The notes under the pieces: model-generated | Seen by the model: only the letters and a program-made list of their open reading frames with translations | Database searches by the model: none | What the model was told of the DNA's origin: nothing | Position numbers and translations under genes: made by a program | Shown here: piece after piece, positions 5,552-29,987 of the stretch | Layout of the letters: every line of letters starts with the position of its first letter | How positions within the stretch are numbered: the first letter of the stretch is position 1 | Source of the DNA: a virus | Reading direction: 5' to 3' (one strand) | Length of the DNA stretch: 29,987 nucleotides | IMG/VR virus record: IMGVR_UViG_3300042691_002918 | Location: 1-29,987 of that record

Positions 5552-5989
5552 ATGGGAAGACCTAATAAGATACACAGCCCAGAGCATCTATGGGAGTTAT
5601 TCCAAGCGTATAAGAAAAACACGAAAGAAAATCCTTTTATTGTAAAAGACTACGTAGGCAAAGACGCCGAAATGGTATATAGAGAGAAAGAAAGACCTCT
5701 AACAATAGAAGGCTTCGAAAACTATTGTGCAGATGAAGGTATAATTCAAGACTTGTCTAATTACTTTGCAAATTCGAGGGGAAGATATAAACGCTTTTCA
5801 ACCATCTGCTCACGTATACGTAGAGAAGTGCGTACTGATCAAATAGAAGGAGGCATGGCAGGTATGTATAATCCATCTATCACGCAGCGTCTAAATAACC
5901 TTGTAGAGAAGACACAGACTACAATAGTAGAACAGCCGTTGTTTAACCTGGAATCAGAGGAAGACGAAGAAACCGAAGATACAGAATAG
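5552..5989 (+). CDS. terS: Terminase small subunit (DNA packaging)
   Basis: 145 residues. The N-terminal MGRPNKIHSPEHLWELFQAY, central RPLTIEGFENYCADEGII and the block FSTICSRIRREVRTDQIEGG plus MYNPSITQRLNNLVEKT match the small terminase family of Bacteroidetes phages. This subunit recognises packaging-site DNA and regulates the large subunit. The C-terminus is strongly acidic (ESEEDEETEDTE), fitting contact with the large subunit. The large terminase frame begins 81 nt later. Confidence 0.88.
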   Translation: MGRPNKIHSPEHLWELFQAYKKNTKENPFIVKDYVGKDAEMVYREKERPLTIEGFENYCADEGIIQDLSNYFANSRGRYKRFSTICSRIRREVRTDQIEGGMAGMYNPSITQRLNNLVEKTQTTIVEQPLFNLESEEDEETEDTE

Positions 5990-6071
5990 GAATCCAATAA
6001 TTAAATTCAGTGTTTATGGGATACTACCCCCGTAATTTTTAAGACTAAAACAACCATAGGAATACAATAAT
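5986..6071. repeat. Imperfect 16-bp direct repeats bounding a 54-bp spacer
   Basis: ATAGGAATCCAATAAT (5986-6001) recurs as ATAGGAATACAATAAT (6056-6071), 15 of 16 bases alike. The first copy covers the small-terminase stop, the second the large-terminase start. The spacer contains no credible gene. The arrangement looks like a duplication of the stop-start junction around inserted DNA. Confidence 0.6.
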
Positions 6072-7269
6072 GTTTAAAGTAACTACATCAATTAGGAAGA
6101 TTCTCGCCCTGAAGAATCGTATTAAGATTATACAGGGTGGAACTTCCGCTCTTTAGTCCCCTCTGAAGATAGTAGGAGGGGACGACCATGCAGGTAAGAC
6201 GTTCGGTATTCTACCGATACTCATAGACAAAGCAGCAAGACACTCAGGACTTGAGGTAAGTATAGTTGCTGAAACTATCCCACACTTACGTAGGGGTGCT
6301 TTAAAAGACTTTCTAAAGATAATGAAGTGGACAGGTCGCTATAATGACGAACACTTCAATAAGTCTCTTTTACGTTATGAATTTGGAAACGGAAGTGTAA
6401 TAGAGTTTTTTAGTGCTGATGATTCATCTAAGCTACGTGGTGCTAGACGTGACGTGCTTTACATAAACGAGTGCAACAACGTGACATTCGAATCTTACAA
6501 TGAATTAGCAATACGTACAAAAAAAGAGGTTTATTTGGACTTTAACCCTGCAAATGAGTTTTGGGTGCATACGGAACTGAAAGACGAACCGGACAGCGAC
6601 TTCATAATTCTAACTTACTTAGACAATGAAGCGTTAGATCAATCCATAATAGACCAAATAGAAAAGAATAAGGAAAAGGCGGAGACAAGTTCTTACTGGC
6701 GTAATTGGTGGAATGTATATGGTCTAGGTTTAGTAGGTAGCTTAGAAGGTGTGGTATTTAATAATTGGAAAACCATAGACACTATACCAAAAGATGCAAG
6801 ACTGATAGGTATAGGCTTAGACTTTGGTTATAGTGTTGACCCTACGGCAATAGTAGCTATATATACATACAACGGTTTACGAATTGTAAAGGAATTAGTT
6901 TACAGAAATGGAATGTTAAACACAGATATAGCAAGGGAACTGCCTAAAAATGTTGCTGTTTATGCTGATAGCTCTGAACCGAAAAGTATTGAAGAAATAA
7001 GAAGGCAAGGAATAACGATTAAAGGCGTTACAAAGGGTAAGGATTCTATCAACTATGGTATAGACGTAATGCAGCGTCAGGAATATTTAGTAACGTCAGA
7101 CAGCACTAATCTTATCAAAGAACTTAGGGCGTATTGTTGGGATACGGATAAGACAGGAGTAAGATTAAACAAGCCTATAGGTACAGATCACGCTATAGAT
7201 GCTTTTAGGTATCACGAAATGGAAACTTTAGGACTAAATACAAGTTATGGAACATACGCCATCCGTTGA
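6070..7269 (+). CDS. terL: Terminase large subunit, interrupted in Walker A by a 42-nt stop-containing segment
   Basis: From ATG 6070 the frame reads MFKVTTSIRKIL ... IKIIQGGTSA, then CTT and TAG stop at 6154. It reopens in the same frame and continues GKTFGILPILIDKA to 7269. Without 6151-6192 the protein has 385 residues and an intact ATPase P-loop GGTSAGKT (residues 23-30). The rest is complete: Walker B-like VLYINE, coupling segment YLDFNPANEFWVH, and RNase H-like nuclease acidic residues in GIGLDFGYSVDP, YADSSEP and GTDHAIDAFRY. It is the packaging motor and headful nuclease. With no other terminase in the circle, the gene is probably functional, which requires bypass or another recoding. 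If not, translation could only resume at weak starts such as CTG 6163 or ATG 6322, the latter losing the ATPase P-loop. Confidence 0.85.
6151..6192 (+). other. Candidate translational bypass element inside the terL Walker A motif
   Basis: Fourteen codons long and in frame. It follows GCT (Ala, 6148) and ends with GCA (Ala, 6190). TAG (6154-6156) is two codons after GCT. GTCCCCTC (6156-6163) pairs perfectly with GAGGGGAC (6176-6183) around a 12-nt loop. An SD-like AGGAGGGG run (6174-6181) lies 8 nt before GCA. Matched take-off and landing codons, early stop, hairpin and SD-like run are features of the T4 gene 60 hop. The segment is GC-rich against an AT-rich gene. Bypass is inferred, not shown. 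Confidence 0.55.
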
Positions 7270-21009: not shown

Positions 21010-21423
21010 ATGCAAGAAGAATGGAGGCCAATTAAATCGTATGAAGGCTATTATGAAGTAAGTAATCTTGGAAGAGTTAGAAGTTTAACCAGAAAGATAG
21101 AAAGAACTGATCCTAAAATAACAACTAAAAAGAGGTTGTTTACATATTATGGAAAGTTAATACCTTTTTGGATTGCTAAAAAAGGATATTTAAGACTTAC
21201 TTTAAATAAAAATGGAGTTAAATCAAATCATTTAGTGCATAGATTAGTAGCACAAGCATTTATAGAAAATGAGAATGGTAAAGAACAAGTAAACCATATC
21301 AATGGAATTAAGTGTGATAACAGAGTTGAAAATTTAGAATGGGTAACTAATTATGAGAATTATGTACATTCTGTATTAAATGATTTACAACCTCGTAATA
21401 AAAATTATAGCAAGTACCTATGA
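21010..21423 (+). CDS. Free-standing HNH homing endonuclease (NUMOD4-HNH)
   Basis: 137 residues. Residues 3-28 (EEWRPIKSYEGYYEVSNLGR then VRSL) are a NUMOD4 DNA-binding motif. The C-terminal half (HLVHRLVAQAFIENENGKEQ, VNHINGIKCDNRVENLEWVT) is an HNH_3 nuclease with the His pair and Asn. Such genes are selfish mobile elements that cut alleles lacking them. It is visibly more AT-rich than its neighbours and sits between a connector and fibre genes. Its stop overlaps the next small frame (TGA at 21421). Confidence 0.9.
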   Translation: MQEEWRPIKSYEGYYEVSNLGRVRSLTRKIERTDPKITTKKRLFTYYGKLIPFWIAKKGYLRLTLNKNGVKSNHLVHRLVAQAFIENENGKEQVNHINGIKCDNRVENLEWVTNYENYVHSVLNDLQPRNKNYSKYL

Positions 21424-29905: not shown

Positions 29906-29987
29906 ATGGCAAAAGACAAAAAAGGATTTATCCTGTACGCTGATCAGAAAGCATTATTTGAACAGCTACCTAATGACAAAGCTGGAG
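29906..29987 (+). CDS. DUF6291-type replication protein, 5' part (continues at position 1-557)
   Basis: Start MAKDKKGFILYADQKALFEQ, continuing over the repeat into 1-557 to make a 200-residue protein. It is the gene directly after the structured leader, so its expression is probably controlled by it. Confidence 0.88.
   Translation, partial: MAKDKKGFILYADQKALFEQLPNDKAG
29952..29987. repeat. Terminal direct repeat, right copy
   Basis: Identical to 1-36. It shows that the contig closes on itself. Confidence 0.93.

Follow-up and report, generated by a model that had tools for sequence, protein, structure and literature searches.

The gene for the large terminase subunit (terL) in the window, by which we mean the whole 29,987-nt stretch of viral DNA analyzed here, is interrupted within its Walker A codons by a 42-nt insert that is very probably a programmed translational bypass element resembling that of T4 gene 60, this being the best explanation of the sequence comparisons described below. 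The insert belongs to a large family, apparently not described before, of putative bypass elements in phage terminases, for which skipping at the level of translation is proposed from comparative evidence. No account of such a terL insert family was found in the literature searched, a coverage from which most subscription papers and preprints fall outside. If the proposal is correct, mobile DNA can hide inside an essential gene by way of the ribosome, and ordinary gene calling will report the insert-bearing terminases as truncated.

All features of the locus are on the + strand. The gene for the small terminase subunit, terS (5552-5989; phrog_606, E 1e-13; PF16677 GP3_package), lies directly upstream of terL, which starts at 6070. 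The 5' coding segment of terL (6070-6150; MFKVTTSIRKILALKNRIKIIQGGTSA) consists of codons 1-27 and closes with GGT GGA ACT TCC GCT, after which come CTT and an in-frame TAG stop (6154-6156). The last of the 27 codons, GCT (Ala, 6148-6150), is the putative take-off codon, so the TAG is the second codon after it. A gap of 39 nt predicted to be skipped (6151-6189) and the putative landing codon GCA (Ala, 6190-6192) together make up the 42-nt insert (6151-6192). At 6193 the sequence picks up with GGT AAG ACG, the start of the 3' coding segment (6193-7269), which extends from GKT to the stop codon and encodes 358 amino acids with the Terminase_3 and Terminase_3C domains. When 6151-6192 is removed, terL reads QGGTSA-GKT. 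The insert contains an exact 8-bp inverted repeat (6156-6163 and 6176-6183), and RNA folding extends the stem by one U-G pair. The resulting hairpin (6156-6183, arms 6156-6164 and 6175-6183), identified by folding and covariation, has a C-rich 5' arm, a G-rich 3' arm, and the loop core TGAAnnnAGTAG. The Shine-Dalgarno (SD)-like run AGGAGGGG of the G-rich 3' arm (6174-6181) ends 8 nt before the landing codon. RNA folding also indicates, tentatively, a weak 5' stem-loop formed by the Walker A codons (6134-6152), whose 3' arm includes the take-off codon. The division of GGTSA from GKT by this segment, and the positions of the TAG, the 8-bp repeat, the G-run, and the GCA, agree with the preliminary description of this DNA.

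The insert is not a chance pattern, since a search for the element core that tolerated up to 3 mismatches gave one occurrence in the window, where 0.02 would be expected, and many independent contigs carry it at the same codon. It is also not an assembly error, as the segment, which the preliminary description had wished to see verified in raw reads, is present in contigs from other metagenomes that are 100% and 99.95% identical (L123 and L108). A domain search of the record returned a single Terminase_3 match, and positions 1-36 and 29952-29987 form a 36-nt direct terminal repeat that fits a closed (circular) genome assembly; the earlier statement that this closed genome holds no second terminase was thus borne out.

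In the mechanism that we propose, the ribosome would translate the 27 terL codons and, with the nascent chain on tRNA-Ala at GCT, would meet the hairpin stem 5-6 nt downstream. The tRNA-Ala would then release GCT, the ribosome would cross the gap without decoding, and the same tRNA would re-pair at GCA directly past the hairpin. Decoding would restart at GGT-AAG-ACG to give an uninterrupted Walker A motif, GGTSA-GKT. The G-rich 3' arm, situated 6-9 nt before the landing codon in elements of the Ala type, may help to place the ribosome. Sliding in T4 is processive over up to 56 nt (PMC11194080), and the terL gap lengths are within this range and so fit it.

Among 80 terL homologs from IMG/VR, GGTSA-[GS]KT was uninterrupted in 76 and carried a 42-nt insert at the same codon in 4, which answers the proposal of the preliminary description that the closest homologs be inspected for the lack of exactly 42 nt. 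Scanning for the hairpin core without regard to gene brought up many more contigs, and the true elements were always at the Walker A site of terL; in these scans no element was found elsewhere, the other matches being unrelated. A second type of scan, which asked only for GGTSA and GKT at a distance of 30-54 nt and imposed no hairpin, added inserts with unrelated loops. Systematic extraction from this first terL family yielded 47 distinct inserts in 86 distinct sequence contexts, all at the same two adjacent codons, with 22 distinct inserts coming from the sampling that did not require a hairpin. Five further distinct inserts of 42-45 nt were found in a second terL family (P-loop GGAA-GGGK[ST]) that is ∼22% identical to the window TerL, and one of these is identical at 37 of 42 positions to an element of the first family. 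Two cultured relatives from the second family, Cellulophaga phage phi10:1 and Flavobacterium phage 11b, have an uninterrupted GGAAGGGKS. DNA searches with terL and with two element sequences returned no cultured phage carrying the element; protein searches did return relatives among named phages, and those that were checked had an uninterrupted terL. A pattern scan of bacterial genomes gave four matches, none with a terminase context, a sample of 395 bacterial genomes from one class contained no element, and relaxing the stem to CC..GG recovered unrelated sites only. The nearest cultured relatives of the window terL infect Flavobacterium, so Bacteroidota ribosomes may matter for the skipping.

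The 47 inserts of the first family were 32, 35-45, or 50 nt long and were distributed over the three frame classes as 27/9/11, that is, 27 were multiples of three and 20 were not. Each contained a single hairpin (47/47) with a minimum free energy (MFE) of -14.5 to -26.2 kcal/mol, and all z scores were below -2.5 in comparison to shuffled sequences. Without exception, C exceeded G in the 5' arm and the 3' arm was G-rich, an orientation that matters for the RNA strand only. In 41 of the 47, a spacer of 5 or 6 nt separated the take-off codon from the stem, and several of the folds displayed GNRA tetraloops. In an alignment of 14 elements of 42 nt, three stem pairs were changed on both sides and 99.2% of the cells were paired; the covariation score was matched by none of 500 shuffles and by no slid version of the alignment. 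On the basis of their flanking codons, 35 elements were of the Ala type, being preceded by GCN and ending in GCN (27) or GTN (8), as compared with a frequency of 6.6% for GYN triplets inside the gaps. The other 12 were of the Gly type, all of them located between GGN and a native GGN, two of these (the G35 elements) being also readable as Ala-type with GTA. The take-off and landing codons were synonymous in 39 of the 47 inserts and differed by C to T at position 2 in the remaining eight. A landing codon of GTA or GTT was seen in L213, L283, L286, L252, and others, always by the change of the middle base from C to T, and such a GTN codon would retain pairing with tRNA-Ala by means of a middle G-U pair.

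Of the 35 Ala-type elements, 34 had a G-run ending 6-9 nt ahead of the landing codon; in the Gly-type elements this distance was 1-10 nt. Stop codons varied in identity and position: one was directly adjacent to the take-off codon in only 3 of the 47 inserts and within two codons of it in 26, and L101 had no in-frame stop, so a stop right after take-off, which had been listed as a feature of the element, is not general. Just before the insert, insert-bearing terL genes favored CAG, TCY, and GCY among their Walker A codons, an over-use partly confounded by the scan patterns and by relatedness. This choice of codons allows a small stem-loop to form there, which had a mean MFE of approximately -5.8 kcal/mol versus -3.3 kcal/mol for insert-free genes; it may resemble the 5' stem-loop of T4 or may only reflect a co-transferred flank. 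Overall, the comparison of relatives that differ by the exact insert, with lengths in all three frames, a covarying hairpin, and matched codons, strongly supports the original proposal of a bypass element in the terL Walker A motif.

The sequence comparisons further indicate that the terL protein is made as if the insert were absent. The 359-aa protein encoded downstream is the same in locus L103, which has the insert, and in L002, which lacks it, and in insert-bearing phages the pN/pS ratios were 0.11 for the upstream segment and 0.125 for the downstream segment (the values for G32/35, whose sequences were not indel-aligned, were unreliable and were left out), so that both coding segments are under purifying selection, strong for the 5' segment. 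Because a stop codon inside a conserved gene usually points to a pseudogene or an artifact, both were considered. An assembly or sequencing artifact is contradicted by the independent contigs noted above, and decay of terL is contradicted by this selection on both segments, by the identical L103/L002 remainder, by the recurrence of the same insert class in many phages, and by the presence of no second terL in the record; we regard either as scarcely credible. Equally hard to credit is read-through of the TAG, or its reassignment, to give TerL with 14 additional residues. The 42 nt of the window insert are a multiple of three and the frame does reopen past the TAG, but 20 of the 47 inserts shift the frame, and the stop moves or, in L101, is absent. 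In addition, no tRNA gene was found in the 29,987 nt searched and the window terS itself stops at TAG. The same frame-shifting members contradict a divergent duplication of the P-loop, which the preliminary description had offered as an alternative on seeing the reopened frame.

Its other alternative, an altered start, is disfavored and fails in most relatives. Here translation would stop at the TAG and restart inside the insert, yielding a TerL with an insert-derived P-loop (GGDDHAGKT in the window; MKLVVGDDNAGKT from an ATG in L004), and the reopened frame of both the window and L004 does fit GxxxxGKT. However, in 37 of the 47 inserts the frame of GKT contains no upstream ATG, GTG, or TTG, and in nine loci (L288, L101, L121, L209, L352, L409, L433, L436, and L451) a stop in that frame lies 0-1 codon upstream of GKT. 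A restart is thus refuted for most members and is very unlikely as a general account. With read-through, reinitiation, and decay set aside, terL would consist of two coding segments whose function is restored only by joining them, and the frame after the insert is set by the putative landing site and not by the gap length, as illustrated by the 27/9/11 frame classes and by the 42-45 nt inserts of the second family.

The only serious rival to bypassing is removal of the segment from the mRNA before translation, either as a mini-intron of 32-50 nt or through transcription that skips the hairpin. Such a process accounts for the exact removability, the frame independence, and the hairpin equally well. 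Nothing in it leads one to expect flanking codons of the Ala..Ala/Val or Gly..Gly kind, the placement of a G-run 6-9 nt ahead of an in-frame codon, or the strict order of C-rich then G-rich arms, and it would call for a mechanism without known precedent. The length of 32-50 nt is far below that of self-splicing introns, the window gave no Rfam match to a self-splicing ribozyme or otherwise, and we know of no bacterial mRNA splicing of this mini-intron kind. We therefore consider removal at the RNA level improbable.

Bypassing itself has points against it. Signals known from T4 are missing or altered in the terL inserts: there is no conserved nascent peptide, few stops adjoin the take-off codon, and the stem begins past that codon. 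Moreover, the eight Ala-type elements ending in GTA or GTT allow tRNA-Ala to pair only through the middle G-U. T4 gene 60 undergoes programmed translational bypassing of a 50-nt gap and has a neighboring HNH gene, mobA (PMC3014915, PMC2988022); its bypass has been described as unique among T4-related phages (PMC3014915). The terL inserts share with it a gap, matched codons, a hairpin, an SD-like run shortly before the landing codon, and, in some loci, a neighboring HNH gene. They differ in their location at the terL Walker A site, in having many diverse members, in using Ala as well as Gly codons, in their shorter gaps, and in their much larger G-run. The terL hairpin is in every gap, covaries, and begins 5-6 nt after the take-off codon, whereas the T4 stem contains the take-off codon. 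T4 gene 60 also has a stop directly after take-off and depends on its nascent peptide, in which KKYK exerts its effect 25-30 residues away from the P site (PMC5009743), but the terL inserts carry no conserved signal of this type. The T4-like basic nascent peptide suggested in the preliminary description does not hold up, as the residues ahead of the insert in the second family are ...STEEVLYGGAA and the window chain is only 27 residues long at take-off.

Other candidates have been reviewed. The byp elements of Magnusiomyces capitatus mitochondria are short inserts skipped by the ribosome, some of them frame-breaking, with codons that are not always perfectly matched (PMC5009743). The terL inserts are likewise many and short, with frame-breaking examples and imperfect codon matches; the byp elements number 81 over 12 mitochondrial genes and are read by mitochondrial ribosomes with relaxed decoding, in contrast to the one site in one phage gene of a bacterial host described here. 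The statement that no such element was known in a terminase has to be amended, because the terminase gene of Streptomyces phage Hau3 was put forward earlier as a putative bypass candidate (PMC5009743). It too is a terminase gene proposed to need bypassing, but its gap is much shorter and surrounds a rare UUA codon, its SD-like sequence is 5' of the gap, no gap hairpin is mentioned in the review, and its proposed role is regulatory rather than that of an inserted element. The same review records a 29-nt hop, never pursued further, in Prevotella loescheii, which likewise belongs to the Bacteroidota (PMC5009743). Efficient bacterial bypassing has thus far offered one natural case, T4 gene 60, from which essential signals are hard to tell from accidents. 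The terL inserts supply more than 50 natural variants that differ in gap length, loop, stop position, and codons; among them are near-identical phages of which one has the insert and the other does not. They suggest that no dedicated nascent peptide may be needed where a short covarying hairpin at a fixed distance is combined with matched codons.

With less confidence, we infer that the insert spreads, or has spread, with a homing endonuclease gene at the terL start and shields its own terL from cleavage. A review puts forward the idea that the T4 gap gave protection against the endonuclease (PMC5009743), and our model extends that proposal to the terL inserts. On balance we favor the broader reading that hairpin mini-elements in terminase Walker A codons are widespread, are tolerated by bypassing rather than splicing, and spread with HNH/GIY-YIG genes, which would make them a translational counterpart of mobile introns and inteins. 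Many relatives have an HNH or GIY-YIG gene between terS and terL. Among the loci with enough upstream DNA, an endonuclease gene abutted or overlapped the terL start in 31 of 101 with the insert and in 2 of 55 without it (Fisher p = 2.8e-5), an excess that a mobile cassette would lead one to expect. When related sequences were paired independently on the tree, the pairs divided 4 to 0 (p ∼0.125); with phylogeny corrected for, the association thus loses significance and is suggestive only. An endonuclease gene was also adjacent in 2 of 6 loci of the second terL family. Three types were found at the terL start: HNH with NUMOD4, a GIY-YIG-like type (five loci, with weak Pfam support and a call that depends mainly on the motif), and a third, HNH-like type (L409, no Pfam match). 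T4-like phages have free-standing seg (GIY-YIG) and mob (HNH) genes that are intergenic, overlap their neighbors, and co-convert flanking DNA (PMC2988022). The terL-start endonucleases, known from sequence, are similarly HNH or GIY-YIG genes in intergenic positions overlapping their neighbors; unlike seg and mob, they adjoin a gene with a skipped insert.

The distribution of the inserts was sporadic and was confined to the terL Walker A site. On the terL tree, the element switches between present and absent at least 15 times, and well-supported branches force 10 of these changes; most of the insert-bearing genes had been found by pattern, so the sampling was non-random. Nucleotide identity between L103 and L002 was 89-98% downstream and 74-85% in the short upstream segment, and similar one-sided divergence was observed between the window and L001. 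This pattern resembles that expected after one-sided gene conversion with a co-converted flank. The upstream-segment pS was reduced in two insert-bearing groups (0.25 versus 0.55 and 0.23 versus 0.43) but not in insert-free genes (0.49 versus 0.53).

Bypassing could also be correct with the insert serving as a regulatory device that limits TerL, and not as part of a homing cassette. TerL is required in modest amounts, and 70 of the 101 insert-bearing loci, like the window terL, have no adjacent endonuclease gene. Against this role are the sporadic gain and loss among near-identical terminases, the divergence confined to the upstream side, and the three endonuclease types at the terL start, and we judge it possible but the less probable of the two.

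The terS-terL junctions varied among the relatives. The window has an 80-nt spacer (5990-6069) that is also present in L103; in L100, L120, and L001 terS and terL are joined directly instead, and in L098, L099, and L084 the place of the spacer is occupied by an HNH gene. The stop codon of the L098 HNH gene (∼1465-2022) overlaps the terL start (ATGTTTAA), showing that the insertion kept that start intact. L059 and L065 have an insert-free terL with an HNH gene at its start; synonymous differences in their Walker A codons could offer a different means of resisting cleavage. A DNA methyltransferase gene adjoins terL in some Gly-type loci (e.g., L309). The window itself contains a NUMOD4/HNH_3 homing endonuclease gene among its structural genes (21010-21423), which is homologous to the endonucleases at the terL start of insert-bearing relatives.
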